In this document: positions 38,138 through 58,129 of the stretch, piece after piece
Layout: each line of letters starts with the position of its first letter
Position numbering within the stretch: position 1 is the stretch's first letter
Assembly (NCBI GenBank): GCA_037176885.1
Contig: JAWWNJ010000019.1
Coordinates: 2,170,001-2,234,000 of the forward strand
Reading direction: 5' to 3'
DNA: 64,000 bases
Source: Favolaschia claudopus
Taxonomy: Eukaryota; Basidiomycota; Agaricomycetes; Agaricales; Mycenaceae
The notes under the pieces: generated by a model
Told to the model about the DNA's origin: nothing
What the model saw: only the letters and a program-made list of their open reading frames with translations
Databases searched by the model: none
Program-made: the position numbers and the translations under genes

Positions 38138-39974
38138 TGATAGGGCCGCTCAGCGGCTACGCATGAAACCACAGAAATTTGTCGATTTCTGTACCTATCA
38201 GCGGGAGGAAGTGAGGCTAGGATTACAGAAGATATACTCTACCTCGGGGGCAGTATCTTATTGCTTAGGATGGCCGATAAGCCAGCGGGACATCATCATC
38301 TGGTAGCGGGAGCTTAGCGACGTCTCCCTAAACATGGGAGCGGGACTCTGACTTCAACTACTACTACTGTTGGGCCGAGAGCGTAGCGGGAAACCGTTGC
38401 CTTAAGGTGCCGGAGGCCACCAAGAGGAATTACCAAAACCCCGATGTTAGGCGCTAACCCGCCGAACCACCATCGACGAATCAGACAGACGGACAGACGG
38501 ACTCATTAGTACCGGCGGGGACATGCCGCCGGGAACATCACCTTAGGCGGGTCAAACAAGACCTCACGGGAGGGCCAGATCAAGGAAGACTTGATCTTAC
38601 ACGAGCAGCGGGCTTATCACCGAGGACCCGACTAGGGCCGGCGAGCGGACTGGACCAGACGGGGAGCATCGGCTGCCTCGGGTTCACTAGCGGGAAGATC
38701 AACCGACGATGCCGGTGTCAAATACCGTTGATATCGGGGAGTCTCCCGGCGAGTGGCGAACCCTTGGATTATATCGGCTTGCCCTGCTTCAAGCGGGAGC
38801 CTCTTTCCTGATAACAGAAGAACTCAGAAGAACTTGACCGCACTCAAGCCGCCACCAGCACGGATGGCGGGAGGCGACCTTGGCCTTCACTCGACCAGCG
38901 GCAAGCAGCCATTATGAAGAAGATATTTCGTGTCTCTCCTTGAAGACATGGCAACCAGCACGCCATTGCACTGCAATAAGGCGCAATACCCACCCGCCCG
39001 CATGGACTTTCTCCGGGAGGCAGTCTTTTCACTCACGACTCGCAATCCTGAATATACCATTGGTTCCCAGCGGGCGCGGCATCAAACTTGGACACTCTCT
39101 CATCATGATTTTATTTGGTTGTTTCTGTTCCCGCTGCATGTATTTAATCTCCCGCTGTACTTTTGGTTACTCAGTCAATTACCTACCCGTAGACAAGGGC
39201 AGTTTGTAGCGGACTCTAGAATTTGAATTGAAGCTTTGAAAGAGACTAGACTTGATATCTGAGAGAGACTCGAGTGATACGGAAAGACTTGTGGCATACC
39301 GAGCCGCCAGAACTTTGAGAGCCCCGCCAGCCTTTGAGCCCGCGCCCTCCTGAAATACGAGGCCCCGTCTCTTGCAGTTCCGCGGTATAACCAAGACCCC
39401 CGTTCGTGCTTGATTCCGCGCCGTCGACGCCCCGTGTGCCCTGCCGTTCCGCGGTATTCAAAGACCCCCGTTCGAGCTCGCCGCCGCGCAGTGGTGTAAG
39501 TGCCCCGGCCACTGCTAGTGTCCGCGCCATCGACGTAAGAGCCCCGCTCCTTGCCAGAGCCGCGCCAGTTGAATAAGAACCCCGTCCCGCTGAGCCGCGC
39601 CTTCTGCCCGCCGGTTGTCATCCAGAAAGCTTCTTCCCGGTTGACGATCCACTACCGGGCGACGCTTTTCTATTGGCACGGAGACCCTCCCCGCTAGACT
39701 CAGAATTTCTCATTTCGAAGTCTCAGAAAGAGTGACTCTTCGCTTCTCCCGCTGCGAATCGTTTTGCCCGCTACGTTCTCGCTAGACAATCTAGTAGTTC
39801 GTCCCGCTCAAACGTAGCGACCTTGATTGATTGAAGCTTGCACAAGTATTCTGAGGGACGATACGTGCTCCCGCCACCCCGAACACACACACACACACAC
39901 ACGTCGTATTGGATTAGATTTAGTGATTTTATATTTCGGTATATTTCACGCCTACACCTACACGCACCGTTTCA
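38138..39974 (+). repeat. 5' long terminal repeat
   Basis: This 1,837 bp LTR starts TGATAGGG and ends TTTCA. It differs from the 3' copy by one base near 38320 (GCGACG here, GCAACG there) and by ten versus nine AC units in a microsatellite at about 39882. The left end is GC-rich, with AGCGGGA-type words throughout. Short open frames inside are present in both LTRs and carry no domain, so they are not called as genes. Confidence 0.95.
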
Positions 39975-39976
39975 TC

Positions 39977-39995
39977 TGGAGCCCACCGCGAGGGG
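39977..39995 (+). promoter_or_regulatory. Primer-binding site for minus-strand DNA synthesis
   Basis: Two bases after the LTR the sequence reads TGGAGCCCACCGCGAGG, which begins with the TGG that pairs with a tRNA CCA end. The implied primer tRNA would end CCTCGCGGTGGGCTCCA. I cannot name the tRNA without a tRNA set from this species. Confidence 0.7.
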
Positions 39996-40515
39996 TGACA
40001 GATTATTTGTGTCAAGTCGAAAGAAATCACTTGTGGACGCTGCTATAAAACTAGCACGAACCATCCGCCGGTTGACTCGAGAATAGAATATACACCCGCC
40101 CGTTGAGCCGTTAGCTCCAGGCCCGCGATAGAAGATTTTGCCATTTAGTTTCAGAGGAGACGTGGCTTCAGAAGGACGATCCGCTAGAGTGCCACCACCA
40201 AAATCTCGGTCTACAAATACTAGCCTACGCGCCGCTGCTGCCGCTCTTGAATTCGAGCTTCCAGATCCCTCTCTCTCGTCTGTTGCTCTCGCCCGGGAAA
40301 TCTATTCTCTGCGCGGACGAACCCAAGCACACGCTTATCGTTCCCGCCAAACCCAGTCGTTGAGCCCCTCTGCTCCGCTGGAACAACAAACCTCAACTCA
40401 ACCGCCCGGCACTAGACCTGTTACGCCCGACGGTGCAGCTACCCAGTCGTCAACGACTCTCTCGTCTGTCTCTTCACCACTACTCCAAACTTCACCAACC
40501 CCTTCAAACAATCCG
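39996..40515 (+). other. Leader and open upstream extension of gag
   Basis: The gag frame is open from about 40138 but has no ATG before 40516. The reading MPFSFRG... would need a TTG start. The upstream codons are Ser/Pro/Thr-rich and could be coding through an intron or a non-ATG start. A pyrimidine-poor TTTAGTTTCAG near 40144 could be a splice acceptor. Confidence 0.4.
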
Positions 40516-42060
40516 ATGGCTGAAGACGGCAATAATACTGTCGCCCGAGGAAAGAAGCGCGCGCCGGAACCATGGGACAGGAACGCCCCGCTCTTCAAAG
40601 AAGATGAGCCGGAGGAACTCGTTCGTTTCCTGGACCATGTGGAGCGTATGATGGAATTAGATGAGACGCCGGCCGACAAGAAGAACGAGTTCGTCTGCCG
40701 CTACACCGCTCAAGCCACGGCTGAGGAGTGGCGGCAATTCGACTCGTTCTCCAAGACGTTCGACGACTTTAAGAAAGAAATCCTGGAAAATTACCCGTCA
40801 GTCGTCGACCAGAAGAAGGGCTCTGTGCAGAAATTGCACAAGCAGCTTCGTAAGTTCGCCGAAGAGGGGATTGACCGGGATGATGAGGACGAGCTCATGC
40901 GCCTCACGCGAACCATGAACGTCGAGGCGAACAAACTCCTCGATTCAAACTTGATTTCGCACCGGGAAGCCCTCCCGATGTTCTTCTCCAAATTGACTCG
41001 CGAGTTTAAGGAGCGAATCCTGGAGAATCTCGAGAGGAAACCTCCCGCTGAGGACGACGACGAGCCGGACGCCCGCTCATGGACGCTGGCCGAAGTCATG
41101 AGTGAGGCCAAAAAGATCGCGAAACGTTCGACCGCCAACTCGGAGTTCTTTGGCACTTCTGATCGAGGTTACTCGAGCAAGTCAAAGAGCGCCAGCGGCT
41201 CTGGACGAGCGTCGAGCGGGCGGTCGATTCTCCCGAATCCGAACGTTGCGATTAAGAAAGAAGAAGAGGACCCTAACAAGGCCCTTCTTGAGACGATTAA
41301 GGTGTCGGTCGTCACTATGATGGAGCGGCTGGATAATCAGACCTCCCAATTAAAAGAGATCGACGCCGCGACCAAGAAGAAGATGGCTGAGTTAGAGTCC
41401 TTCTATAAGTCCCTACCGGGCAGAGTCCCAGGCGCCGCTGACTCCCAGTCTTACCCGCGAATGCCTACCGTGCAATTCAAAGGGAACCTGGCGGATCAGG
41501 GGTGTCTTTATTGCGACAAGTTTGGGCATTTTAGAGATAAGTGTCTCATCCGGCAAGCCCACATAGGGAGTGGAAAGATGAAGGTCGTAGGGTTCAGAGA
41601 CTGTTTCCCCGATGGGATACCTATCCCGAAAGACGGGCACAAGTCCAAGAAGCAGCAGGTAGAGGAGTACCGCCCGGCCGCCCAACCAACGGCCGCTGCG
41701 CAAAACTACCAGTCTGTCTTCGCTCAGCTCTCCGTTCTTGACATGGACGAGCAGGAGCTGGAGGCCGCGCAAGCCGCGTTCAGTCAGAACGAGGAATTCT
41801 ACTATGACCCGAGAGAAGAAGAATTGGTTTCCTTGCGAGCTGAGCAAGTAAACCTCCAGCGGCAAGTGACGCAACTCCAGTCGCATGGTTCAGGGGGTGT
41901 TCAACCACCCCTTGTGGCTCATCAAAGCCAAGCTCCCCCGCCGCAATTCGACGCCAACGCTGTTGCGATTCTACTGGCGGCTGTCTCAGCGAACTCTCGC
42001 TCTCCCAACGGGGCTGGTCCCTCCCGAACGGGGAACAGCGCCGAAGGAGAGCATTTTTAG
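40516..42060 (+). CDS. gag: Gag structural polyprotein of the retrotransposon
   Basis: The frame from the first ATG encodes 514 residues that would form the particle and bind the RNA. A basic-acidic N-terminal region precedes a helical capsid-like segment with the landmark PEELVRFLDHVERMM. A zinc knuckle (C-x2-C-x4-H-x4-C, CLYCDKFGHFRDKC) lies near 41502-41543, about residue 330. The C-terminal third is Gln/Ala-rich. The stop codon at 42058-42060 follows CAT TTT. The -1 frame is open without interruption from that point into the protease frame, so Gag-Pro is likely made by slippage at this T-run. The frame is also open upstream without an ATG back to 40138. Confidence 0.85.
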   Translation: MAEDGNNTVARGKKRAPEPWDRNAPLFKEDEPEELVRFLDHVERMMELDETPADKKNEFVCRYTAQATAEEWRQFDSFSKTFDDFKKEILENYPSVVDQKKGSVQKLHKQLRKFAEEGIDRDDEDELMRLTRTMNVEANKLLDSNLISHREALPMFFSKLTREFKERILENLERKPPAEDDDEPDARSWTLAEVMSEAKKIAKRSTANSEFFGTSDRGYSSKSKSASGSGRASSGRSILPNPNVAIKKEEEDPNKALLETIKVSVVTMMERLDNQTSQLKEIDAATKKKMAELESFYKSLPGRVPGAADSQSYPRMPTVQFKGNLADQGCLYCDKFGHFRDKCLIRQAHIGSGKMKVVGFRDCFPDGIPIPKDGHKSKKQQVEEYRPAAQPTAAAQNYQSVFAQLSVLDMDEQELEAAQAAFSQNEEFYYDPREEELVSLRAEQVNLQRQVTQLQSHGSGGVQPPLVAHQSQAPPPQFDANAVAILLAAVSANSRSPNGAGPSRTGNSAEGEHF

Positions 42061-42146
42061 AGAGTTCGAGGAAGGGGGCAAAGGGGAAACCCAGTGCGGA
42101 TAAGCCCCCGGAGAACAGACAAGTACGCCCGCCTGTAGGAAAGAAA

Positions 42147-43313
42147 ATGGAAGTTGTGATGCCGAAGTTGCCCTACAAGCCGAGGACGCTGCGAAAGCCC
42201 GCTGTCGAAGCACAGCCGGCGGTCGTTGAAACCAAGGAGAAAGGGCGGGAGGAGACAGAAGAACAAAATGGCGCTCAGCCGCCGGAGCTTCCGTATAGGA
42301 ACGTTCCTCCGGTCAAGCCAGCCAAAAGGCCCAACGAACCTAGAGTTCGGCCGGCGGGAGATCCGCCGTTAGTGGCCAACGAAAAGAACTACGAGTTGAA
42401 GGCGCCCGTAGAGGACCAGGACGATGAGGAGGTCGAATCCTTGATAAAGGAGATCTTCGGAAACCTGGAAATAGCTCTCCCGCTGGGGAGACTGTTCGCC
42501 CTCAGCCCGAAGTTGCTGCGCCAGGCTAAGGCGTTGCTCTCGAAAAAGAGGGTCTCGCCCGCTGTTCGAGTAACCCTAGAACAGCTGATTAGCCACGCAG
42601 AGAAAGAAGCCGATGAAGACGACGAGTCCTCCAGCGTAACCGTTGAGGACCTACCTTACGAGGTAATAGTCCAGGTCGCGACAGCGGCCGACGGACTTAT
42701 GCCAGCGGGAGCCCTGATCACCGTCGATCCAGTAGTCCAATATTGGCAGTCGATAGTGGAGGGAGAGCCGGTAAGGGATGTCTTCGTCGCCATCTCCGAC
42801 AATGCTTCTGCCGGAGAATCAGCGGCCCTGAGAGTAGTCTTCCCGCTCATTCACGGCGCCGCTGAAGTTGAATGTATTCTGGACGGTGGATCGCAGATCG
42901 TGTCCATGGCCCTGTCGGTAGCCACCGAACTAGGAGTCAGCTGGGACCCAGATAACTGCATCCACATGATGAGCGCCAACGGGCAAACCGAGAAGTCAGT
43001 CGGTCTGGCAAGGAACGTCCCCTTCAGGTTCGGTGACATGACGGTGTACCTTCAAGTACATGTCATACGAAACCCGGCCTACAAGGTGCTGTTGGGGCGA
43101 CCTTTTGAAATCCTGACCGCCAGCGGTATCAAAAATACCTCTGACGGGAACCAGTTCCTGACTTTGACCGACCCCTCCACGCAGAAGCGGGTGGTCGTCC
43201 CTACCTTCCCCAGAGGCCAGCGGCGACAGGTGCGGCGCGTCCAGAACGACGCATCACCGGCTGAACAGCCGAGCAGCCAGGAGGAGCAAAATTTTCAGAA
43301 TTCGAGGAGTTGA
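42147..43313 (+). CDS. Aspartic protease ORF (Pro) of the retrotransposon
   Basis: The frame has an ATG at 42147 but is open back to the gag stop in the -1 frame. The N-terminal half is charged and low in complexity. The C-terminal part has a retropepsin signature: CILDGGSQIVSMA (active-site Asp in DGG rather than DSG or DTG) near residue 245. A typical second half follows, with the flap region and VLLGRPF near 310. Protease matures the Gag and Pol polyproteins. The ORF ends at 43313, and the pol frame is again at -1. A perfect slippery heptamer A AAT TTT lies at 43289-43295, just before the stop. Confidence 0.85.
   Translation: MEVVMPKLPYKPRTLRKPAVEAQPAVVETKEKGREETEEQNGAQPPELPYRNVPPVKPAKRPNEPRVRPAGDPPLVANEKNYELKAPVEDQDDEEVESLIKEIFGNLEIALPLGRLFALSPKLLRQAKALLSKKRVSPAVRVTLEQLISHAEKEADEDDESSSVTVEDLPYEVIVQVATAADGLMPAGALITVDPVVQYWQSIVEGEPVRDVFVAISDNASAGESAALRVVFPLIHGAAEVECILDGGSQIVSMALSVATELGVSWDPDNCIHMMSANGQTEKSVGLARNVPFRFGDMTVYLQVHVIRNPAYKVLLGRPFEILTASGIKNTSDGNQFLTLTDPSTQKRVVVPTFPRGQRRQVRRVQNDASPAEQPSSQEEQNFQNSRS
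43289..43295 (+). promoter_or_regulatory. Candidate -1 ribosomal frameshift site, pro to pol
   Basis: The codons CAA AAT TTT in the protease frame contain A AAT TTT, which fits the X XXY YYZ rule for tandem slippage. Shifting -1 here reads TCA GAA TTC GAG GAG TTG and enters the pol frame with no stop. The protease stop is 16 bases downstream. I have not tested for a downstream pseudoknot. Confidence 0.6.
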
Positions 43314-46300
43314 TTAACCATCAAGGAGAATTAGCGGTTCAGATAGAACTGGACGAGAATAATGTTCCTAGAATTTGCGCTTTGATGAAGTCTGGAGAAG
43401 GGGGATTTTCGATGGCCGAGACAAAAATGGCCTACCTGGCGGCTGCCATGCCAGAAATTGATGATGGTCCCGCTGCTCAGTTATTCCAAGAATACAACGA
43501 GCAGCTGACAGAAGGAAAAGAAGTCGGCGAATCCTATGTGGCTATCGTAGCCAACATAACGGACAAAGTCAGAGAGAAACTGAAGGATCCGGCCGCTGTG
43601 TTCATGACTGCTGGCATCGACATTGAGTCGGTTAGGCAAGAGCAATCTCGTCATTCAGCGGGGGAGCGCTGTCAGTGCTGTGACTACGCCGATTGGGTAG
43701 TACCCGGGTTTGAACACAATGAGACGAAAGTCGCTTTGATGGAGGAAATCATTCCCGAGGATCACCCGCCTGAAGTCGAGGTGAAGGAGGTGTTCTCGAA
43801 GAAGTATAAACCGGTAGCGCTAAAAGTAAAGCCGGTTCTCGAGCCGCTCCCTCCCGAGTTCAGGATAGAAAGGAATATCATCGGGGATCCATTGCAGAAC
43901 CTCGTCCCGCTAGACCCTCACCCGCCAGAATTCGTTCCCGTTGGGAGATACACTGCGGAGAGGAAGGCGGTTGTAGACGAACTGCATAACGATGGATTCT
44001 TGAATGATGAAGAGATGAAGCTGGTTCATCATATGTTATCTATACACGAAAATACGGTAGCATGGGATGACAGCGAAAGAGGAACTTTCAGAACGGATTT
44101 CTTCCCGCCAGTAAAGTTCCCGGTGAAGCCAGACCATAAGGTTTGGGTGGAGAGAAATATTCCCATCCCGCCGGGACAGCTGGAAGAAGTCTGCAAGGTG
44201 CTTAGGGCGAGTATCGATGCCAATATATATGAACCATCCAATGGCTCGTATCGCACCAAGTACTTTGGGGTTCTGAAGAGTGATAAGAAGTCAATTCGGT
44301 TAGTGCATTCGCTGGAGCCGCTGAACGCGGTAACCATTGCACACTCTGGGGTGCCTCCCGGCGCCGCGGATCTGGCCGAACATTTCGCAGGAAGGGCTTG
44401 TGGGTCCACGTTTGATCTTTACTCTGGGTACAACCACCGGCTGATTGACCCGGAATCTCGAGATTACACAACCTTCCAAACTCCGTTTGGTGCGCTTCGA
44501 TTGGTAAGATTGCCGCAGGGTTGGACCAACTCGGTGCCGATCTTCCACGAAGACGTAACTTACATCCTGCGAGACGAAATCCCTGCGGTTACCCGGCCGT
44601 ATATAGACGACGTGCCTGTCGCCGGAGGCTTCACTCGATACGAAAAGCCTGACGGGACGTACGAGACCATCCCTGAGAACCCGCTGATAAGGGTCTTTGT
44701 GTGGTTACACTTGGTAGACTGCAACCGGGTACTTACCCGGCTAGCCTATTCTGGGGCGACTGTAAGCGGGAAGAAGTTGCAGATTTGCCGGGGAACTTTT
44801 AAGGTGGTCGGCCATGTCTGCTCATACGAGGGCATGCGCCCGGATGAAGATAGAATCGGCGTCATTGAGCGTTGGGGTCCGCTGAAGGATTTCCACGATG
44901 TGAAAGCTTTCCTGGGAACTGTGGGCGTTATGAGAATGTTCATCCAAGACTATACAGTCAAGGCTGAGCCGATTCAGAAGCTCACCCGGAAGGAAGTCAT
45001 ATTCGAGTGGGGCCCGGCCCAAGACGCATGCATGAAAGTTTTGAAGAAGGCTTTGCGAGAATGTCCCGCGCTTAGACCTATAAGATATGAATGGGACACC
45101 GAAGTGGTACTGGCGGTCGATACGTCGTACCTTGGAGTTGGGGTGCATGTGTACCAGCGGGATCCTTTGGACCTAAATAAGCGGTACTATGCCCGCTTCA
45201 GCTCCATACCTTTGAATGACCGGGAGTCGAGGTATTCTCAGCCCAAGCGGGAATTGTTTGGCTTGAAGAGGGCGCTAGACCACATGCAATATTGGCTGTT
45301 GGGCTGCCGCCAGCTGGTCGTCGAAACCGACGCTCAGTACCTCAAGGGCATGTTGGATCACCCGGGAATGGGACCCAACGCTACGATCAACCGCTGGATT
45401 GAGGAGATCCTGATGTTTCATTTCACTCTGAAGCATGTGCCGGGCAAGACTTTCGGGCCAGATGGACTCTCCCGCCGGCGTATTCAGCCGGGGGATCCAG
45501 AGTATGATCATCCAGAAGACGAGTTCGATAATAACGAGCCGCCGGGTCTTCATCCTGAAAGTAGTGCTTGGCCGCCTCTCAAGAACTTCGAGGATTTCAA
45601 GCACGATATTGACACCCGAGGTGGATATATGGTAGCGGAATTGGCGGGAGACGAGGCTCGGTCAGCCGCTGACTTCGGAAACGACGCCAAACAGGCTTGG
45701 GCTTACACCCGCCTTAGTAGAGAATATGTTTTCGAAGTCTTCTCTCAGTCAAAGGGTGACGACAAGCCAGAAGGCGAGCCGTTGATCCCTGACCTCGAAT
45801 TGAAGTACGACCCGAAGAAGCGGGAACCGTATTCGGAAGACCAGCGTTCTGTAGCGGCGAAGCTAGCAGACGAGCGGCTGCTCCTCATGAAGGACTGGCG
45901 GCGGAATACCCTAGCTCGCCCGGCTGGCATGAACGACAAGGAATACAAAGCCTTCTTGCGATTTGCTACCGGCTTCTTCGAGGACGCAGATGGAAAACTC
46001 TATCATAAATCCTCAACAGGGAGTGCACATCAGTTGGTGGTAGACAAAGATCACCGAATGTATATGATGCGGGCGGCTCATGATAGCCTGGCCCACCGCG
46101 GTGTCTTTGCTACCAAATCCTTGATAGAAATGCGTTTCTGGTGGCCTGAGATGGAGCGCGACGTCACCTGGTATATTAAAACTTGCGAACTGTGTCAGTT
46201 GAGGCAAAGGACTTTATTAAAGATCCCGCCAGTTGTCACCCATACCCCTTCGCTCTTCCAGGTGGTGCACGTCGACGTAATGGTCGTAGGAACTCCTTCC

Positions 46301-47398
46301 AACGGCTTCAACAAAATTGTTGACGCCCGCTGCTCCCTCAGCAGCTATATAGAAGCGCGGCCGATAAAGAATGAGAATGCCAGAACATTGGCCTTGTTCT
46401 TACTTGAAGATGTGATTTGTAGGTGGGGCTGCCCGGAGGAACTGGTGACAGATAATGCACCGGCCTTCCTAGCGGCTGTGGCCTACCTTGAATCTAAGTA
46501 CGGTATAAGAAATATCAGAGTTTCGCCGTATAATTCTCAAGCCAACGGGAAAATCGAAAATGGGCACTTCTCGATGAGGCAATCCTTATGGAAAGCTACT
46601 GGCGGGAATCCCAGCAAGTGGTACTGGTTCTTCCCGCAGATGTTGTGGGCTGACCGGGTCACTATTCGACGAGGAACAGGTTGTTCACCCTACTTTATGG
46701 TAACGGGCGCACATCCGATCCTCCCGCTGGATATAGAAGAGGCGACTTGGCTAGTGCATCTGCCCGGCAGGACTCTGACGACCGCTGAATTAATCGGTTA
46801 TCGAGCCCAGGCCTTGGCTAAGCACGCCACTCACGTCGAACAGATGAGGGAGCGGGTCACCGACGAGAAACGAGCGAATTTACGCCGGTATGAGATAGCG
46901 CATAAACACACTATCGAAGATTACCATTTCGAGCCGGGAGACTTGGTGCTCATCAGGAATACGACCGTCGAGAAGTCGCTGAATACGAAGATGGCCGCCA
47001 GATACCTGGGACCAGTAATTATCATCCGTCGTACGAAAGGTGGAAGTTATATCGTAGCGGAGATGGACGGCTCTGTCTTTCAATCGAAGATTGCTCAGTT
47101 CAGGGTCGTCCCCTTCGAGCAGCGGCGCTCTATTAAGCTGCCCGCTGACATTCACGACTTAATCGACCTCTCGGCCGAGACGCTAGAAAAGATGGTCCAG
47201 GAGGAAGACGGTTATTCTGGAGATGACTTCCAATTCGGGAATGTGAGGTTGACCCCCAGCGGGGCGGCTGACGAAGAGCCAGCTCTGCAGGAGGCCTTGC
47301 CCGAGGAAGAAGAAGAGGAAGAGGAACCTAACACGGATGAGCCGCTGCCTTTCAAACGAAAGACTCGTTCTGCCACAAAAGCCGCCGCGCGGAAATGA
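43310..47398 (+). CDS. pol: Pol polyprotein: reverse transcriptase, RNase H, integrase
   Basis: The open frame of 1,362 codons has no ATG at its start (TTG at 43310, first ATG near 43385), consistent with entry by frameshifting. Reverse transcriptase spans about residues 260-520, with LPQGW and the catalytic YIDD near 430. RNase H starts near 600 (AVDTSYLGVGV). The integrase HHCC finger is near 925-965 (HDSLAHRG...CELCQLRQ). The catalytic D, D, E lie in HVDVMVV, VTDNAPAF and GKIENGH (about 988, 1047, 1083). A GPF/Y-like module (ARYLGPVIIIRRTKGGSY) lies near 1230. The domain order places the element in Ty3/gypsy. There is no chromodomain: the C-terminus is an acidic Glu run followed by a basic KRKTRSATKAAARK stretch. 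The frame is intact. Confidence 0.95.
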   Translation: MINHQGELAVQIELDENNVPRICALMKSGEGGFSMAETKMAYLAAAMPEIDDGPAAQLFQEYNEQLTEGKEVGESYVAIVANITDKVREKLKDPAAVFMTAGIDIESVRQEQSRHSAGERCQCCDYADWVVPGFEHNETKVALMEEIIPEDHPPEVEVKEVFSKKYKPVALKVKPVLEPLPPEFRIERNIIGDPLQNLVPLDPHPPEFVPVGRYTAERKAVVDELHNDGFLNDEEMKLVHHMLSIHENTVAWDDSERGTFRTDFFPPVKFPVKPDHKVWVERNIPIPPGQLEEVCKVLRASIDANIYEPSNGSYRTKYFGVLKSDKKSIRLVHSLEPLNAVTIAHSGVPPGAADLAEHFAGRACGSTFDLYSGYNHRLIDPESRDYTTFQTPFGALRLVRLPQGWTNSVPIFHEDVTYILRDEIPAVTRPYIDDVPVAGGFTRYEKPDGTYETIPENPLIRVFVWLHLVDCNRVLTRLAYSGATVSGKKLQICRGTFKVVGHVCSYEGMRPDEDRIGVIERWGPLKDFHDVKAFLGTVGVMRMFIQDYTVKAEPIQKLTRKEVIFEWGPAQDACMKVLKKALRECPALRPIRYEWDTEVVLAVDTSYLGVGVHVYQRDPLDLNKRYYARFSSIPLNDRESRYSQPKRELFGLKRALDHMQYWLLGCRQLVVETDAQYLKGMLDHPGMGPNATINRWIEEILMFHFTLKHVPGKTFGPDGLSRRRIQPGDPEYDHPEDEFDNNEPPGLHPESSAWPPLKNFEDFKHDIDTRGGYMVAELAGDEARSAADFGNDAKQAWAYTRLSREYVFEVFSQSKGDDKPEGEPLIPDLELKYDPKKREPYSEDQRSVAAKLADERLLLMKDWRRNTLARPAGMNDKEYKAFLRFATGFFEDADGKLYHKSSTGSAHQLVVDKDHRMYMMRAAHDSLAHRGVFATKSLIEMRFWWPEMERDVTWYIKTCELCQLRQRTLLKIPPVVTHTPSLFQVVHVDVMVVGTPSNGFNKIVDARCSLSSYIEARPIKNENARTLALFLLEDVICRWGCPEELVTDNAPAFLAAVAYLESKYGIRNIRVSPYNSQANGKIENGHFSMRQSLWKATGGNPSKWYWFFPQMLWADRVTIRRGTGCSPYFMVTGAHPILPLDIEEATWLVHLPGRTLTTAELIGYRAQALAKHATHVEQMRERVTDEKRANLRRYEIAHKHTIEDYHFEPGDLVLIRNTTVEKSLNTKMAARYLGPVIIIRRTKGGSYIVAEMDGSVFQSKIAQFRVVPFEQRRSIKLPADIHDLIDLSAETLEKMVQEEDGYSGDDFQFGNVRLTPSGAADEEPALQEALPEEEEEEEEPNTDEPLPFKRKTRSATKAAARK

Positions 47399-47620
47399 AT
47401 TACTGCTACGATATCTACGTTACAATTTGAAACGGGATTCGAAGTCTTTAAGTAATTGGATTGTCTGCATCTCCCGCCAGTGAGCAGCGACTAAGTTGCG
47501 CACCCGGGGAGTGTGTGGCGGCCAGCAGAAGGATGAGCCGTGAGGTGTCCGAAACGATTGAGCCAGTACCGAGGATTCTGAAGAAAGGGGGACCCGCTGG
47601 GGGAGCTCTTTAGGAACGAG

Positions 47621-48860: not shown

Positions 48861-49282
48861 TTTTGAAGGAAGCAGAGTAAAGACAGTAGACGAGGCTGGG
48901 GAGTATACCCGTTCGCCCGCTGCTTCTTATACTCGAGCGGCCGTAATGTAACGCCGTAAGGATAATTGGGACGAAATTTGGACAACGGCCGAACTTGGAT
49001 TACCATTTATGGTAGATGCACCCGCCGGTGGCGCAGAAAATTATTTCAAACGCGCCCGATCGTTCCGTGGCACGAAAATTTGCTGCCGGGGGACCTGAAT
49101 TTCCTCTGATCGATCAACTGAGGACAGTTGAGATTTCTGAAAGGGGGAGAGGTGGGTCACCTAGCACGTCATTTGAGGGCAGCGGGCACATCTTTACCAA
49201 GAAATAAATGTTTCCAAGGCCTCACATGGGGCGGGAGCGTGTGTTATCGGAACGAACTATCCGAAAGTACATGTGCCTGTAT

Positions 49283-49911
49283 CTACACTGCCCGCATCCT
49301 AGCCGGAAGTTCCAGGAAAAGATTATTTGCGAGAACGTCTAACCGCTCGCGGATAACAGCAACATACGCAGCCGGGAGATTAGCCGTTTTGGCCTCTTGC
49401 AGAAGATGGAAAACCTGGCGGGCCTCGAAGTAAAAAGACAGCCGTTGGGTTGCCTCTGCGACGTTTCGACCAACGATTACAGCATGGTATTGTTGCCAGA
49501 ATGGGAACTGCGCCAGGGTCCCCTCGTGAACGACGTCCCAAGCAGCAAGCTGTTCCTTCGTAGCCGCTAGAAGCGAGCGGGGGATCAGTTGTGGCGCAAC
49601 AGATAAGAAAGAAGTCGTCACTTACGATCGGGACCCTCTTTGAAACGGTGCCGGCGGGCAGCTATTTCATCGGCCAGCTCAGCGGTCTGAGTGTACGAGC
49701 AGTTGTGCTTCAGCAAGAAACAGCGGGTACACGGTGCTCCCCACTCAGTAAACTCGCAATGAGAACGGGCGTTGAGGCACGCAGAGCATACCCGGCCAGG
49801 CTGCCGAATGATGAGGAATTACCCGAGGCAAAATGTTCAGGAACGTACATAGTACTCCCTGAGCGGGCCGACGGGGTCATTTGGAAAGAGTGGATTTTCC
49901 AGCAAAGACAT
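49283..49911 (-). CDS. Antisense cargo gene D, Zn2Cys6-spaced protein
   Basis: Three exons (49911-49849, 49800-49626, 49566-49283) join at phases 0 and 1 into 173 residues. Exon 2 begins PGRVC and carries six cysteines spaced C-x2-C-x6-C-x8-C-x2-C-x6-C, within the rule for the fungal Zn2Cys6 binuclear cluster. Unlike most such clusters it lacks the run of basic residues between cysteines, so DNA binding is not assured. Exon 3 is helical and ends ARMRAV. A TATA-like TATTTAAG lies about 40 bases upstream of the ATG. Genes B and C have the same three-exon layout and phases, so the three are diverged tandem paralogues. Confidence 0.7.
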
Positions 49912-50195
49912 GAGTAGACGACTGAAGCAAATGGGACCTTCCCGCCAGCTTAAATACCCCTCTGAGACCTGGCGGGAGACCCAAAAACATAGAGATCGAC
50001 AGTGGGACTCATTGCACCCGACGCTCCCGGAAGATCCGCAATACATGTGGAATATCCAACGAGGTGCTGAGCTCCCGCTGAGCGAAAAACACGAGGAAGC
50101 TTTGGTTTCTAAGAAGCCTTCCTAATCGGGCAGCTTGAAACAGAGTTTTAAAGATGCAAGTTCGTTTGACAGTGGGAATATATTTCCTACTACGC

Positions 50196-50866
50196 TTACG
50201 GCCCGATGAACATAACGGGCGGGAGCCTTGCGCCGGACTGGAGAGCTACAGCGTCTAACCTATCCCGGAGGAGATCTACAATTTCCTTTCGCATGCCCGC
50301 CCCCTTCGCGTCAAACCACAGCCGATACAAGAAGCGTAGCTGGCCAAACCCAAGGGTGCCGAGCATGGACCTGGCGGCGAGGATGGTGCAAGTACGCACA
50401 TCAATGTACAACTTCTCGTCGAATCGGGCAGCGGCAGCCCTGGCGTACCAGTCAAACTGAGCGATCCGCCCGGCGGAGGGAGCTAAAATCCACTAAGGCC
50501 CCGCCGAGAGGTAGAAAGAGAGAAAGCAGACTTGCCTGGCTGAGAGGCTAGAAGAGTGTCGCGACGACGGCTGTTCTCGGCCTGCCAGACGGACTTCTTA
50601 GTGTAGCAGCACAAGGCGGCGCGACCTATGAACATGCAGCTGAGGCAGGCTTCACCCCACTGAATCCAGATGCAATGGCGGTAGTTCTTGAGGCAGCACT
50701 GGCATTCGTACTCCGGCTAAGAGGAGGCACCCGTCAGCGGGAGAGCACTGAGAAAGAATGAAAGACCCACAAACTGAGCTTGAAGTACAAGCTGGTACTC
50801 TGAGGGACCGGTGAAGCTCCTAAAGCGTTCTGAGTAGAAAGTCGCTGCCAAAGAAAAGGCGGGCAT
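50196..50866 (-). CDS. Antisense cargo gene C, Zn2Cys6-spaced protein
   Basis: Three exons (50866-50789, 50716-50536, 50482-50196) give 181 residues with intron phases 0 and 1. Exon 2 starts PEYEC and holds cysteines spaced C-x2-C-x6-C-x8-C-x2-C-x8-C, plus extra cysteines beside two of them. Intron 2 has a GC donor (CAG|gcaagt) and a TTTTAG acceptor, which is the only choice that keeps the frame open. Exon 3 is helical and ends PVMFIGP. It shares its layout with genes B and D. I recognise no family beyond the zinc-cluster spacing. Confidence 0.65.
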
Positions 50867-51038
50867 CGCTCGAAGAACTCACTGGGCACCGGCCGCTATA
50901 AGTAAAATCTATAGCCGACGGGTGAGTACCCCCGGCTGCCGGACCAAAAGCTCAGGTGGAATCAGACATCACGATAACGGCTTGCAGCCGGGCAAAGAGA
51001 TTTATTTGACCCTAACGGGGAAAAGTTACTAGCCCGAA

Positions 51039-51780
51039 TTATCGCTCGAAGGTCTGGCGGCGCGTGCCTTGGGTCAAGGGCACAAGGGTCGGAACTTGAG
51101 CGTCCCGTCGCCTGATATCATGAAGAGAGATAGCTGCGTCAACGTCGCATTGGGCATGGATCGAACGGTCCTGAGCGCGCCACTCGCGTAAAACTCGAGA
51201 CAGGATGTTGTAGAAATACAGCCGCCGGCTGGAGTGAGCGGCGTGAGACAGGTCGTGAGCAACGTCCCAGTCACGAAGGTCGCCGGCAAATTCCTCCCGC
51301 CGACGTAAAAAGTCAGCAGGCTCACCGTCCACCGAGCCTATGAACATATCGGGGCTTAAGCCGCCGAGGCGTAGGTGGTACCAGAGTTCGAGGAATGCAA
51401 GGTCGTATAAAGTGCCGCCTGAATAGAATAAGAAAGACGAGAATTTGAAGAGCGGCTGGACTTACCGCTGCGATAGATAAAAAGTGTCGGAAAGGTCGAA
51501 GATGGATAGGTAAACTTGAACCAATCCACCCCGGTGAACAGACACTTGGGGACCTTCGCCTCCCGGCACCGGGTGCACTTCGAACCCCAGTGGAGAAATT
51601 CACAATCTTCGCCGGCGTCACTACAAGGCGTGCAGACGAGATTCGGCTGGCGGTTGGTTGGACTTGGCGCAGAAATGCGTTGAGGAAGCCTACCACAGTA
51701 TAGATCTTGCGCACGAAGTCTCGACTGACCGCCGGGAAGAAATGATAGTCGATTAAGACTTCCCCTACAGTCTGGGGCAT
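51039..51780 (-). CDS. Antisense cargo gene B, Zn2Cys6-spaced protein
   Basis: Three exons (51780-51694, 51646-51466, 51418-51039) join at phases 0 and 1 into 215 residues. Exon 2 opens PNLVC, and its six cysteines are spaced C-x2-C-x6-C-x8-C-x2-C-x7-C. The segment between cysteines 2 and 3 is acidic (SDAGED) rather than basic. Exon 3 is a long helical region with many Arg and Asp residues. Exon 2 is exactly as long as in gene C (181 bases). Introns are 47 bases each, typical for this genome. The function is unknown. A role in regulating the element, or in competing with host zinc-cluster factors, is only a hypothesis. Confidence 0.7.
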
Positions 51781-52591
51781 GGCAGTGTAAAAGAAAGAAG
51801 AATTTGATTGGCTGTCTACCCCTATCAACTACAAGTACGGTAGCGGGCAGCTCGGGCCGCCGGGCCGGTCCTACTCTACGTTATCACTCTTACAAGACCA
51901 GCGGGAGAAATGAGGAACTAGACACCCGGTGGAGTCCGAGGACAGCCGCTGGCAGCTAGAAGAGAAGCCGCGGGCGATCCCCGCTAACTGATGAAGCACG
52001 GTGATAAGCGTCGATGCCGCTCGGCATGTTGAAAAACTTGACGTTCAAGGTTCAACCCGCTCTCTAAGTCGTATTCAGCCGACGGGTGTGGTACTTGGTC
52101 GAGATTCCCCAACTTGAACTCTTAACTCAATACTTAAGGGAGCTCGTGGCGGGAACTTGACTTAGGAACTTAAAGGAACTTAGAGATTTCACACAAAGGG
52201 GAGCAGCGGTAATCAAAGCTTTTATTCATCGGCTCTTTGGCGGGCACAAGCTGCTGTACTACTATGGAAGGAATAATTTTATTTTTGAAAGGTGCAGCGG
52301 GCAGAACCGAATGTTCTGCCAGGCTGCACCGCGCGCACAAGACATTTTGCAATCGGGTTGAAGGGACCCGGACCCTGCGATACGTTTAGCGAATAAAAAT
52401 TTTAGGGGGCCGCTCGGCCCCCGCGATGAAACAATCTCCTGGCAGGAACGGGACTTCTTGTCAGAAATTGAAGAGAAAGAATTTAAGAAAGGGGGAGACT
52501 TACCTCCCCCGCCCGGCCGAAGACAGTGGCCGCCGACAAGCTGTGAAGTAGTCAGAGAGATGGGAGAGAGAGATCAGGTGGGGACATACCT
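51781..52591. other. Spacer between cargo genes B and A
   Basis: Probably the 3' untranslated region of gene A and the promoter of gene B. A possible 3' UTR intron of gene A (donor at about 52588, acceptor about 52543) is consistent with GT..AG borders. No open frame of note. Confidence 0.35.
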
Positions 52592-55571
52592 TCAAGACGC
52601 CGCGCCATCGAACGGGGGCGGCGGCATTCCCCAGGTGCTGGGGGCCATGTCGTCGTCGACCTCACCGGCCGCGTCCGCGTCTGCCTCCTCCTCCCCCGCG
52701 CTGTCGACTGGAGTCGCGGCACGCTGCTTGCCCGCCCGCTTGGCAGACATTGCAGGGGCAGGCGGGAAGCGGTCTTCGGCTAGAGAAAGAAATAAGTGAT
52801 TAAAAGAAAGATAAATGTTAAAACCACTTACGGTCGGTCGACTCTTCGGAGTCTTCGTCCTCCTCCTCGGCCTCGGAAGCGGCAGTGGGAGTCTTGGGAG
52901 CGGGAGCCTCGACTGGCGGCTCGTACTCCCCGTCAGACTCGACGGTGGGCTTACTGGTCGGCGCCTTCTTGCTCTTGCGAGACTTCTTCTTGGCGGGAGC
53001 GGGCTTTGGCTCGGCGACGTCGGGAATATCGGTCACCTTGCCGAGCTTCTTGAGTTTGCCCAAGAACCCGGGTGTGTCGCGAAGGACTTTGAAGGGGTGG
53101 GGCCGCCCGTCGGCTGTCTTCTCGGGAACTGCGAGGCCTTCGAACTGCTGAAGTTCGCTGGCGAGGCGGTTGCGCAATTTCACGTCAGACACGCCCGCTG
53201 GCAACTTCTTGTCGTCCAAAAGGACTTCGAGGCAGTCGTCGGCCTGGCGGGTATCAACGAATTAGAAATAGAAAGAATTGGAAACGGTGGAACCCACCTT
53301 AACTTCGACCCACTGCGCCTTGCCCTCTTTGTCGGCAAGGGCGGGGATGAGGAAAAAGCCGTAGTGGTCGTTGAGCTCGCGGTTGTCGACGGCTTTATAG
53401 AAATCCCAGGCGGACTGGAAGGGAGCCGGCAGCGGGGAGCGAAGGTCATCGTAAGAGACCGCGTGCCAAACCCAACCACGGTGAAGGTCAGAGTCGGCGG
53501 TCAGCGACTGAGCCATCGCCAACTTGAGGGTGACTTCCAAGAGGAAGTCGCACTCAGCCTCATCCTCCCCTTCGAACCGATCCAAGAATTCCTCGTAAGT
53601 CAGCGAGCGGCGGGTCTTGAGGATCACCAGCAAGAGCTGGAGGAGACCGTACTGGTACTCCGAGTTGGCACGAATGGCGGCGGTATTGGCGTCGGCGGCA
53701 ACGCGCCCGAGGGCCATCGCGTTCTCCATTTTCTCCTTCCAGCCTAAAATTTGAAAGAAAAGTTAGACGAGACCCGGCGGGAATTAAGAAAGTTTAAAAA
53801 CGAGCTTACCCGCGTTGGACATGTCAGCGTAGCGAAGGACCTCCGGGCCCAACGCACCCAGAACCTCACCGCTCATGAGCAGCGAGCAGCTGTTGGTTGT
53901 CTTCTTCTGTCGGCAGCCGCGGCACATGGCGGGAGTGCCCTCGATAACGCAGGAGCTGCCGAAGCTGAGGCAGTTGGTGCACCGGGGGCCGACCTGGGGA
54001 AACCCGTAAATCAAGTAAAGCCGAAAGGCGGCCAGAAGGGACTTACCTGAGGGCGCGACAACTTCAGCATCTGGCGGATCCAGTCGTCCGAGATGATGTA
54101 GCGGTTGGTCTCCTCGTCGAAGGGGAGGTCTTCGCGAACCGTCGCCGGGAGCATGCTGAGGAATTGGTGCAGCACGCCCTTGTTGGGTTGAAGGAAGCCG
54201 ACCTCTTCGGGCAAACGGTTGCGGCGGGGGTGAGAACGAGCGTTCAAGGTCTGGCTATGCGCAATCCCGCTGTAAGCAAGGAGGTCAGGGTGGCCGCTAC
54301 GAGAGGAGTTCAAAAGAGAGGACTTATCTTGGTCTTGACGGGGACGATATCCTCCGAGCGGAGGATGCTCTGGATGAGCATGGCCTCCGACACGTCCTTG
54401 ACCGCGACTGAAGCAGAGACAGGGAGTGGCGCCTTCGCGCCGGCCTTGATGATTTTGGGAGCGGGAACGGCTGTTGTCAAAGAAATAAGAAAATCTAAAA
54501 GAAAGAGTGCGAAAGAAAAGGGAATACCTTTGCGGCTAGGACCCGCTACCGGGGCCTTAGGAGCATCCTTGGTCTCGATCACCTCGATGTCGGAGTCGTG
54601 GCCTGAGCGGGCGCGTTCGTTATGTTCGCAGAGGAACTGATAGATATTAAAGATACCTTCCGATGCCGGTGCCTTGGCGGGCTATAAAAAGGGCCTAAGT
54701 CGAGAAACGAAGGAGTTCACTGGCGTACCTTCGTCTTTTTGCCTTTAGGCTCCTCGTCCTCAGCGGGGGTGTCGGGCTCCTTGCGCTTTGAGCCACTCGC
54801 GGGCGCCGGCTTGATGATAACGACCTGGGGCACTTCCTTGGGGACGGGACCGTAACGAGGCCCGCCGCCACTCTGAAAGAAACAGAACAAGTCAGCCCAG
54901 GCGCGGTAGTGGATCGGCATACTCGGCGTACCTTGGTGGACTTCGTGGACGCAGAGGAGCCGGGTTGGGCTGGTTTCTGGGCCTTGGAGCCCGCTGGGTG
55001 GTCAGACACTGGCTTAACCTTGGGAGTTTTAGGGGGCGCTGCTGGCGGGGCGGCCGGTGGAAGAGGAGGCAGCGGCTTCGACGCAGTGATTTCTGTGAAG
55101 TCGCGCAAATAGTGGGGCTACGGCGGCGAGCAGATGGGTTCGCCATGAACTAGAAAGGAAAGAAACGGTGTACTCACCGGGCAACCGAAGTGAACGATCT
55201 CCGACTTGGTCAACAACATCTCCCTCAGGTTTGGGTAGTCTTGACCCGGGTCGGCGAGGTTCACGGCGATTCGAAGGGAGTAGTGGAGGGCGATCAGCCA
55301 TGGCGGGCAGCCACGAAGGTCGCCCAGCTTGGCCCGTGAGGCTGTCTAAAATAAAGGGACGGTCAGGGGAAGCCGCCGCCGACTAGCAGCAGCGGGAACC
55401 TACCACAATAACACGGACGTTCTGAAGGAATCGGAGAAGATTGTCGGCGTCTTGCTGCTTGGCCACGGCGGGGATGGCGATCTGCTTGAGGTCGCGGAAC
55501 TCGTCGCTCGAGAGGCGACGGAGGGACGCATACCAATCCTTGGCGGGAGCTGGGGCGGCAGCGGAGGTCAT
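52592..55571 (-). CDS. Antisense cargo gene A, large Zn2Cys6-spaced protein
   Basis: Twelve exons give about 790 residues: 55571-55404, 55345-55178, 55117-54932, 54872-54729, 54681-54657, 54602-54528, 54470 to about 54329, about 54270-54047, 53993-53810, 53743-53298, 53243-52832 and 52779-52592. A helical N-terminal domain is followed by a long Pro/Lys/Ser/acidic linker. Then comes an exon starting VGPRC with cysteines spaced C-x2-C-x6-C-x8-C-x2-C-x8-C (phase 0 in, 1 out, as in genes B-D). A helical domain and an acidic, Lys-rich tail complete it. The exon 7/8 junction lacks a GT donor: the site reads ACCAAGATAAGTCC, and one extra A there would explain both the lost donor and the phase mismatch. 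A TATA-like TATAAAAGAG lies at 55747-55755. Confidence 0.65.
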
Positions 55572-56261
55572 GCTGGGTGTGAAACATCCAACATGATCCC
55601 GGAAAACTCAGAAAAAACTCCAAGACGACAGGCGGGAAGGACTCACGTCAATGTGTTGGCGGGCTTGGGGTAAAAGAAGCTAAAGATAGAAGAAAACAGG
55701 ATGAAAAAGAGGAAAGTTTGATGGGAACCTCGCCAAAACCTCCAGCTCTTTTATACGTCGAGCGGCGGAGCTCGAAATTCTTGATGGGATTCTCTGAAAA
55801 ACTCAGAGAAAAACATTTGAATGGAGAAGCGCCGCCGTGAGAGCGAAAAATCTGAGTCAGGCTGCGGCTGCGGGCCTAGAAAGGTGGAAGCAGGGACCTA
55901 CAACGATAAAGTTTGGATATAATGAAAAGAAGCTGATGTACTTCCCAATCGGGAAGTCAATACATTCCCGATGACGATTGACTGAGTCCGAGCGCCGCGG
56001 CTAAGGATAAGGTTCGAATTGAATGGCCTTGCAGGGTCGGACTAAAAATAGGTCGAAAGAGAGTTTCGGGAAGGCCTGAGGGCTGATTCTGGAATGGAAT
56101 ACAGAAGGGAACTGGCGGGATCGTCGGGCCTCGCTGGCGGGCCGCCAGCGTTTATCAAAATCGTTCCAAGACTAGATTGTCTTGAAGTCCCCTTCCTCTG
56201 AAAGGTGACAAGTCGCTCAGCGGGCGGTACACCAACCGTCAACTCGGGAGAGTTGAAATCT
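55572..56261. other. Promoter and leader of cargo gene A
   Basis: The 690 bp between gene A and the polypurine tract hold the TATA-like box at 55747-55755 on the minus strand. No other coding signal is seen. Confidence 0.4.
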
Positions 56262-56274
56262 AGAAAGGGGGAGA
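56262..56274 (+). promoter_or_regulatory. Polypurine tract for plus-strand DNA synthesis
   Basis: AGAAAGGGGGAGA directly abuts the 3' LTR, as expected for the plus-strand primer of an LTR retrotransposon. Confidence 0.85.
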
Positions 56275-58109
56275 TGATAGGGCCGCTCAGCGGCTACGCA
56301 TGAAACCACAGAAATTTGTCGATTTCTGTACCTATCAGCGGGAGGAAGTGAGGCTAGGATTACAGAAGATATACTCTACCTCGGGGGCAGTATCTTATTG
56401 CTTAGGATGGCCGATAAGCCAGCGGGACATCATCATCTGGTAGCGGGAGCTTAGCAACGTCTCCCTAAACATGGGAGCGGGACTCTGACTTCAACTACTA
56501 CTACTGTTGGGCCGAGAGCGTAGCGGGAAACCGTTGCCTTAAGGTGCCGGAGGCCACCAAGAGGAATTACCAAAACCCCGATGTTAGGCGCTAACCCGCC
56601 GAACCACCATCGACGAATCAGACAGACGGACAGACGGACTCATTAGTACCGGCGGGGACATGCCGCCGGGAACATCACCTTAGGCGGGTCAAACAAGACC
56701 TCACGGGAGGGCCAGATCAAGGAAGACTTGATCTTACACGAGCAGCGGGCTTATCACCGAGGACCCGACTAGGGCCGGCGAGCGGACTGGACCAGACGGG
56801 GAGCATCGGCTGCCTCGGGTTCACTAGCGGGAAGATCAACCGACGATGCCGGTGTCAAATACCGTTGATATCGGGGAGTCTCCCGGCGAGTGGCGAACCC
56901 TTGGATTATATCGGCTTGCCCTGCTTCAAGCGGGAGCCTCTTTCCTGATAACAGAAGAACTCAGAAGAACTTGACCGCACTCAAGCCGCCACCAGCACGG
57001 ATGGCGGGAGGCGACCTTGGCCTTCACTCGACCAGCGGCAAGCAGCCATTATGAAGAAGATATTTCGTGTCTCTCCTTGAAGACATGGCAACCAGCACGC
57101 CATTGCACTGCAATAAGGCGCAATACCCACCCGCCCGCATGGACTTTCTCCGGGAGGCAGTCTTTTCACTCACGACTCGCAATCCTGAATATACCATTGG
57201 TTCCCAGCGGGCGCGGCATCAAACTTGGACACTCTCTCATCATGATTTTATTTGGTTGTTTCTGTTCCCGCTGCATGTATTTAATCTCCCGCTGTACTTT
57301 TGGTTACTCAGTCAATTACCTACCCGTAGACAAGGGCAGTTTGTAGCGGACTCTAGAATTTGAATTGAAGCTTTGAAAGAGACTAGACTTGATATCTGAG
57401 AGAGACTCGAGTGATACGGAAAGACTTGTGGCATACCGAGCCGCCAGAACTTTGAGAGCCCCGCCAGCCTTTGAGCCCGCGCCCTCCTGAAATACGAGGC
57501 CCCGTCTCTTGCAGTTCCGCGGTATAACCAAGACCCCCGTTCGTGCTTGATTCCGCGCCGTCGACGCCCCGTGTGCCCTGCCGTTCCGCGGTATTCAAAG
57601 ACCCCCGTTCGAGCTCGCCGCCGCGCAGTGGTGTAAGTGCCCCGGCCACTGCTAGTGTCCGCGCCATCGACGTAAGAGCCCCGCTCCTTGCCAGAGCCGC
57701 GCCAGTTGAATAAGAACCCCGTCCCGCTGAGCCGCGCCTTCTGCCCGCCGGTTGTCATCCAGAAAGCTTCTTCCCGGTTGACGATCCACTACCGGGCGAC
57801 GCTTTTCTATTGGCACGGAGACCCTCCCCGCTAGACTCAGAATTTCTCATTTCGAAGTCTCAGAAAGAGTGACTCTTCGCTTCTCCCGCTGCGAATCGTT
57901 TTGCCCGCTACGTTCTCGCTAGACAATCTAGTAGTTCGTCCCGCTCAAACGTAGCGACCTTGATTGATTGAAGCTTGCACAAGTATTCTGAGGGACGATA
58001 CGTGCTCCCGCCACCCCGAACACACACACACACACACGTCGTATTGGATTAGATTTAGTGATTTTATATTTCGGTATATTTCACGCCTACACCTACACGC
58101 ACCGTTTCA
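56275..58109 (+). repeat. 3' long terminal repeat
   Basis: This 1,835 bp copy is identical to the 5' LTR apart from one substitution and one missing AC unit. It ends TTTCA, then the target duplication ACGC and the host gene. The LTR's own 3' end now lies 20 bases upstream of a host start codon, so it could act as that gene's promoter. Confidence 0.95.
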
Positions 58110-58113
58110 ACGC
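58110..58113. repeat. Target-site duplication, right (ACGC)
   Basis: Matches 38134-38137 on the other side of the retrotransposon. Confidence 0.7.
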
Positions 58114-58129
58114 GCCCATCCCACGCGGC

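Follow-up and report, generated by a model that had tools for sequence, protein, structure and literature searches.

The window analyzed here is a 64,000-nucleotide stretch of contig C19 in the 264.6-Mb genome of the basidiomycete Favolaschia claudopus. Positions 38138 to 58109 of the window were occupied by a complete long terminal repeat (LTR) retrotransposon of the Ty3/gypsy type, about 20 kb long, and the 8,876 bp between its pol frame and its 3′ LTR held five multi-exon genes, designated A to E, on the minus strand, with about 20 short introns among them. A first-pass annotation of the sequence had proposed a gypsy retrotransposon with these limits and five multi-exon minus-strand genes in some 8.8 kb downstream of pol; the LTR pair, the target-site duplication (TSD) and the gag-pol order confirmed the former, and the gene models described below the latter.

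Structure of the retrotransposon

The 5′ LTR (38138 to 39974, plus strand, 1,837 bp, with TG...CA ends) and the 3′ LTR (56275 to 58109, plus strand, 1,835 bp) differed by 1 mismatch and a 2-bp difference in a CA repeat, and they were bordered by the TSD ACGC at 38134 to 38137 and at 58110 to 58113. A presumed primer-binding site (PBS), TGGAGCCC..., recognized by its position and TGG start only, began 2 bases past the LTR (39977 to 39999, plus strand); a primer tRNA was sought for it, and no candidate was identified. A polypurine tract, AGAAAGGGGGAGA (56262 to 56274, plus strand), adjoined the 3′ LTR. The element thus had the combination of TG..CA-ended LTRs, PBS, polypurine tract and short TSD that marks Ty3/gypsy elements.

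Three overlapping plus-strand frames, open without introns, followed the PBS. The gag open reading frame (ORF; 40132 to 42060) carried a CCHC zinc knuckle, CLYCDKFGHFRDKC, that was recognized by eye, and it had no Pfam match. The protease (PR) ORF (41844 to 43313) encoded a retroviral-type aspartic protease (PF13650, 25.8 bits with a cutoff of 24.3). The third ORF (43265 to 47398) encoded reverse transcriptase (RT), RNase H and integrase; PF17921, PF17917 and PF17919 exceeded their cutoffs in it, and PF00078 (RVT_1) scored slightly below its own (28.0 bits, cutoff 29.6). The Pfam matches in the latter two frames therefore followed the Ty3/gypsy order PR-RT-RNase H-integrase. The zinc-binding integrase domain was present in pol, and Pfam reported no integrase core (rve) there at 1e-3 and no chromodomain, the mark of chromoviruses. 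The gag, PR and pol frames were related by successive −1 steps; a T-run at the gag stop (42052 to 42062) and, close to the end of PR, the heptamer A AAT TTT (43287 to 43298) lay at these steps, and we take both to resemble −1 frameshift sites.

The antisense genes and their predicted splicing

A dynamic program that drew on codon use and on four other copies of the element for comparison gave the models of A to E, which were then corrected by frame and comparison. All five genes lie on the minus strand. Gene A (48860 to 47621) has five exons, or six if a putative 66-nt intron (48318 to 48253) is removed. Genes B, C and D have three exons each: B (49283 to 49911; exons 49911-49849, 49800-49626 and 49566-49283) encodes 173 amino acids, C (50196 to 50866; exons 50866-50771, 50716-50536 and 50482-50196) encodes 187, and D (51039 to 51780; exons 51780-51694, 51646-51466 and 51418-51039) encodes 215. 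Gene E (55571 to 52592) has 11 exons and encodes 805 amino acids. Minus-strand transcription and splicing of A to E are predicted from these models. When the 250 bp preceding each gene were searched with a simple pattern, TATA-like boxes, which had been reported for the genes in general, turned up for A, B and E and were not found for C and D.

In the window, gene A carries a short frameshifting deletion, which corrects the first-pass annotation. Removal of its putative intron left A open (316 amino acids) in five of seven copies, and retention left it open in two; the putative intron held an internal stop in three of the seven, one of which had also lost the AG.

The first-pass description of the intron borders as clean GT..AG or GC..AG held for every intron in the window but one. 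All were GT..AG except C intron 2, which was GC..AG, and E intron 6, which was AT..AC. C intron 2 had GC-AG ends in the window and at each of 30 loci, and GT-AG ends in copy L041. E intron 6 (54327 to 54272, minus strand) was AT-AC in the window, L039, L041 and L042; since it is 56 nt long in the window, E is in frame only with the intron removed. An AT-AG border was considered for it and dropped in favor of AT-AC, because the peptide SGIAHSQ, present in four of five database E proteins, requires the latter. The intron began with ATAAGT (window, L039 and L041) or ATAAGC (L042) and ended with AC, and it looked like a U2-type AT-AC intron; in distant E genes, the nearest predicted intron began with GTGAGT (C71) or GCGAGT (C10). 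Database protein P0001, from the C16 copy, was identical to our E model of that copy except for an 18-residue insert, which corresponds to the AT-AC intron read through, and 9 of the 10 introns of E agreed exactly. Agreement of this kind compares prediction with prediction and is not proof of splicing.

Purifying selection on all five antisense genes

The ratio of nonsynonymous to synonymous substitution rates (dN/dS) was calculated for copy pairs with at least four differences and unbroken frames, a condition that excluded E of L039 (an insertion), E of L041 (the locus ends inside exon 1) and A of the window and L043. The ratios were 0.024 to 0.092 for A, 0.124 to 0.157 for B, 0 to 0.23 for C, 0.087 to 0.175 for D and 0.062 to 0.107 for E. 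In a six-frame control, which covered B to E since the window copy of A is frameshifted, the annotated minus-strand frame alone joined a low ratio of nonsynonymous to synonymous differences (pN/pS) with zero internal stops. Summed over three copy pairs, the pN/pS of the annotated frame was 0.20 for B, 0.17 for C, 0.13 for D and 0.13 for E; a low pN/pS was also seen in the complementary frame with the same third positions, which, however, has many stops.

The exon-intron structure was conserved as well. Exon lengths of B, C and D were constant across seven copies, and one intron each of C and D varied by one base. Among 30 distinct loci, a count that leaves out L009 because it is the window itself, the splice dinucleotides of B, C and D were kept in all 30, and the genes were intact in 24 (B), 26 (C) and 26 (D). 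Relative to its exons, the introns of E were two to three times as divergent in L040, L041 and L042; in L039 the factor was 1.7. All five minus-strand frames are under purifying selection, and A to E are real genes rather than chance frames.

Zinc-cluster-like exons and protein searches

B, C, D and E each contain one exon of 175 to 184 bp (53993 to 53810 in E), preceded by a phase-0 intron and followed by a phase-1 intron. The cysteines in these exons, as read by eye from the translations, are spaced CX2CX6CX8CX2CX6-8C, the last interval being X6 in B. The fungal Zn(2)-Cys(6) cluster (PF00172) has the spacing CX2CX6CX5-12CX2CX6-8C, and B, C, D and E fit it. Since introns of equal phase border all four zinc exons, these genes are most simply read as paralogues, probably duplicated with their introns in place, and the introns as old. 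Around its zinc-cluster-like exon, E had basic and acidic low-complexity stretches, also recognized by eye.

Pfam searches of B, C, D, P0001 and P0003 matched neither the TRP28 domain (PF04195) nor a bZIP domain, and a Peptidase_A2_2 match in C was below threshold. The only PF00172 match, that of B, was likewise sub-threshold, and B to E are therefore not filed here under Zn(2)-Cys(6) proteins. Protein searches found relatives of E in F. claudopus only; those for B, C and D returned none, not even the window's own proteins, so absence elsewhere is weak evidence. The first-pass annotation had called the genes cargo. No host origin was found for them; they resemble accessory genes that belong to the element itself, four being paralogues.

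The E genes of the element (P0001 to P0007) are catalogued as hypothetical proteins of F. claudopus. Genes of the element thus enter gene catalogues under this label, and they may contribute to the large number of genes reported for this genome.

Copies of the element and passage of introns through RNA

To read the following counts, it should be kept in mind that the assembly contains two haplotypes, so that numbers of places and copies overstate the number of insertions. A fragment of the antisense region was matched at 40 of the 40 places scored (143 candidates in the genome), so that the search for copies lacking the region, by which the first-pass annotation would have recognized a private insertion, found none among them. 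Eighteen bases of the PBS occur at 129 genome places; with 100 of these used for the count, a PBS in the right orientation lay 12.4 to 13.9 kb from E at no fewer than, that is at least, 59 of 133 E places (141 matches minus 8 second-fragment rows).

Matching 4-bp TSDs were present in six of the nine elements in which both ends were read. The window element and copies C211 and C154 occupied different sites with TSDs of their own (ACGC, ACGT and GCGC, respectively), and their LTR pairs had 0 to 1 mismatch in about 1,835 bp. The A to E region was compared in the three alike, and all three carried it. Because independent insertions with TSDs and near-identical LTR pairs carry the introns, these persist through RNA-based copying, as had been proposed at the outset. 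The element is recently active and high-copy, and the introns of A to E have passed through the RNA cycle.

The 4-bp target site was centered on CG in 18 of 18 5′ flanks, versus 6.1% of window positions outside the element, and in eight of nine 3′ flanks, the exception being C15. The 18 5′ flanks comprised that of the window (38134 to 38137) and those of 17 copies among L001 to L008 and L045 to L071; C16, a repeat of C154, and C9, a 3′ LTR, were left out. The integrase seems to favor, or even to need, a CpG at its target.

The elements at C16:466800-485200 and C154:6213-24360 (L042, L055, L056 and L005) had a common 5′ flank. The two LTRs of C16 are unlike, however, and its 3′ flank is a different one; C16 may represent an allele that was rearranged, or a joint made in assembly.

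Gene E is hyperdivergent on a near-identical backbone

Of 141 genomic matches to the protein of E exon 9, 134 were stop-free. At the 133 E places, the identity of this exon protein to the window was at least 85% in 24, 60% to 84% in 14 and below 60% in 95, all of the last being 31% to 39%. Compared with the window in 500-bp bins, copy C10 was 94% to 100% identical from position 39138, which lies in the LTR, across gag, pol and genes A to C as far as about 51.1 kb, a comparison that omits about 440 bp of gene A. Past 51.4 kb, identity fell to 93%, 86% and 67% in 300-bp bins up to 52.3 kb; E itself was unalignable as DNA, and its exon 9 was just 37% like that of the window. A similar decay towards E was observed between C10 and C71. 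The first 1 kb of the LTR, taken as mostly U3, was 78% to 88% like the window's in C10 where alignable. The mosaic of E first showed in the possibly rearranged or misassembled C16; C10, C71 and the other class III copies show it independently of C16.

Ten class III copies were compared further. Their exon 9 sequences were 95% to 100% alike in one group (C71, C48, C24 and C17), to which C81 was 76% to 78% alike, and 92% to 100% alike in another (C8, C9, C5, C36 and C10), which was 44% to 52% like the C71 group and C81; all ten were 32% to 37% like the window. The first 900 bp of the LTR, in contrast to the E groups, were 93% to 100% alike in the same ten copies and 66% to 68% like the window's; in this comparison C162 has no LTR start in its piece, and the LTR of C9 follows a polypurine tract and so is (also) a 3′ LTR. 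Since class III LTR starts are alike across unlike E groups, E varies on its own. Exchange of E and the first LTR part as a matched unit was considered and rejected on the same comparison, and also because class II E genes (C55, C66 and C100) accompany LTRs 96% to 97% like the window's. Two LTR types could be told apart, with an identity of about 67% in their first 900 bp (38138 to 39138 in the window versus L061 to L071); in C10, the LTR start is joined to a second half that is 98% identical.

The distant E genes retained part of the intron structure. About 35% of aligned residues in the E proteins of C71 and C10 were identical to window E. Predicted introns of C10 matched the window in residue and phase at positions 56, 174, 396, 457, 606 and 743 (6 of 10), and those of C71 matched exactly at 56, 396, 457 and 606, with two more within three residues; the window's remaining introns had no match in these copies, and extra introns placed by the aligner in low-complexity parts are unreliable. 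Within exon-9 groups, dN/dS was 0.07, 0.09, 0.13 and 0.11 in four of six pairs. The divergence extended to silent sites, with dS values of 0.32 to 0.49 for E, 0.06 to 0.16 for A, 0.03 to 0.14 for B and C, and up to 0.34 for D, which adjoins E. This pattern is explained by deep ancestry combined with recombination and not by rapid protein change alone, and the divergence peak at E, with its recombination-eroded shoulder, looks like a long-maintained polymorphism.

Discussion

We consider it probable that the locus is a recently active Ty3/gypsy-type element with an antisense accessory module of its own, A to E, whose introns are carried through RNA and whose E gene is exchanged by recombination. 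In the mechanism that we propose, A to E would be transcribed from the minus strand and spliced there, the sense genomic RNA would contain no functional splice sites for the antisense introns, and the full 20-kb RNA would be packaged and reverse-transcribed with all introns in place. That the antisense placement is the reason why the introns persist is the natural reading, and the lack of introns in the sense genes agrees with it. One zinc-cluster-like exon, duplicated inside the element, may have given rise to B, C, D and the zinc exon of E, and the A to E proteins would most likely be nuclear nucleic-acid-binding regulators of the element. E could be exchanged by recombination between co-existing elements, for which template switching is a likely route. 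Because its versions are very different yet constrained, E is suggested to set a specificity, which might serve self-regulation by type or escape from host silencing.

Intron loss is expected in retroelements that replicate through RNA. In the present element some 20 introns, GC-AG and AT-AC ones among them, have been retained over repeated rounds of copying, apparently via their antisense position, which shows a way for an RNA-copied element to carry ordinary spliced genes. The common intron phases of the presumably paralogous zinc-exon genes suggest that the arrangement lasted long enough for duplication within the element.

Several observations, besides the overstated insertion counts, weigh against this interpretation. 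Matching TSDs were absent in three of the nine elements. The window's own database protein, P0002, begins further in than our E model and differs from it in the join around intron 6. Broken copies occur, gene A of the window being one example, and the introns of gene B (107 nt) were less diverged than its exons in L040 and L041. As for the zinc-cluster-like exons, B scored 13.9 bits against the PF00172 cutoff of 21, and C, D, P0001 and P0003 had no match to this profile; a PDB profile search gave nothing beyond one match at E 0.74, and the predicted structure of E, with a mean predicted local distance difference test (pLDDT) score of 32, was unusable. Concerning selection on E, the other two within-group exon-9 pairs had dN/dS values of 0.56, from three changes, and 0.23, and between groups the ratio was 0.06 to 0.63, silent sites being nearly saturated in the majority of pairs. 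The divergence of E also affects silent sites, which argues for old ancestry rather than positive selection.

Among the alternatives, the one that fares best supposes that A to E, and E above all, are anti-silencing or anti-defense proteins, so that the diversity of E would reflect an arms race with host silencing and not self-regulation. E is deeply divergent on a common backbone, the zinc-cluster-like exons suggest nucleic-acid or chromatin binding, and the antisense ORFs of the plant element Retand are predicted to bind DNA (PMC11963269). Against it, we found no clear sign of positive selection, dN/dS being below 1 in every pair measured. We regard this explanation as a real possibility, although short of likely.

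More doubtful is the view that E is a balanced multi-allelic recognition gene, each type of which would regulate or shut out elements of its own type, allowing rare types to spread, and whose versions would be swapped as modules by template switching. If this were true, E could be likened to the exchangeable immunity regions of temperate phages, and the antisense, intron-rich layout would let a complex gene travel in an RNA genome. A hyperdivergent E on a near-identical backbone is a pattern known from recognition loci, and it makes ideas of self-regulation or arms races testable for fungal retrotransposons.

The mosaic of E might instead be an assembly artifact of a repeat-rich, two-haplotype genome. 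The published 265-Mb draft of F. claudopus, in the annotation of which RNA-seq was used, has 86.8% of BUSCO genes duplicated (PMC10905254), and in C16 the LTRs differ in identity and the flanks do not match. Every identity tier of E, however, occurs at many places (24, 14 and 95 of 133), nearly all matched exons are stop-free, the PBS has the expected spacing at many E places, and the divergence decays gradually rather than at a single joint; we therefore consider an artifact very unlikely. Still less probable is multiplication mainly by DNA-level duplication, in which the introns would never have passed through RNA. The common 5′ flank of C16 and C154 means that some copies are allelic or segmental duplicates, but the window, C211 and C154, with different sites, 4-bp TSDs of their own and near-identical LTR pairs, are as retrotransposition yields.

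The remaining two explanations have almost nothing left in their favor. The region is unusually long for a gypsy element and had no homologues outside F. claudopus in the searches made, which would suit a private nested insertion or a single event in which the window copy captured host genes. This reading is refuted, however, by independent TSD-flanked insertions that have the region in common, by the presence of a fragment of it at 40 or more places and by the PBS spacing. Chance open frames or decaying pseudogenes would suit the frameshifted window gene A and the broken B, C or D in 4 to 6 of 30 copies, but they are contradicted by the low dN/dS of all five genes, the six-frame control of B to E, the constant exon lengths of B, C and D in seven copies and the kept splice sites.

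Comparison with known antisense genes of retroelements

Antisense genes are known from retroelements of several kinds. In human T-cell leukemia viruses (HTLV-1 to -4), the HBZ and APH genes lie, like A to E, antisense in an LTR retroelement, and HBZ is spliced; its product is mostly nuclear and feeds back on LTR transcription (PMC10186651). Since HBZ is already such a gene, the principle of a spliced antisense gene in a retroelement is not new. HTLV has one antisense gene per virus, HBZ and APH-2 being transcribed from the 3′ LTR (PMC10186651), whereas the element described here has five genes with about 20 introns, known from gene structure. No sequence relation of A to E to HBZ or APH was found.

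The plant elements Retand, Grande and RIRE2 have antisense ORFs in the same place and orientation, within a long region between pol and the 3′ LTR, in most copies, and gene23 of Grande is reported to be nuclear and to have its own promoter (PMC11963269, PMC7264820). In the excerpts of these texts, the word intron is absent and no hyperdivergent version is described (PMC11963269, PMC7264820). The TRP28 domain of Retand, as noted above, had no counterpart among the proteins searched here. Boty/BcGypsy1 of Botrytis cinerea is a fungal LTR element with an extra antisense gene, brtn; a single gene is named there, as opposed to five here, and the comparison is one of descriptions only (PMC7264820, PMC8365987). 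The giant LTR elements Ogre and Burro share the size class of about 20 kb or above, and the excerpts of the review covering them contain neither "antisense" nor "opposite orientation" and describe no antisense multi-gene module (PMC6431247). In a limited literature search, we came across no description of an LTR element with several multi-intron antisense genes, or with a hyperdivergent antisense gene. Antisense accessory genes are thus already known from Grande, Retand, Boty and HBZ; what is new here is the multi-intron, multi-gene module and the hyperdivergent E.

Sequences next to the element

A long plus-strand ORF (57992 to 59452) crosses from the 3′ LTR into the flank and includes a cysteine-rich stretch; its part from 58100 to 59452 had no Pfam match. 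The element may sit at a host gene or at an element gene. Just upstream of the retrotransposon, a 63-nt inverted repeat (36798 to 36860 and 37206 to 37268) was 86% complementary and is perhaps another mobile element.

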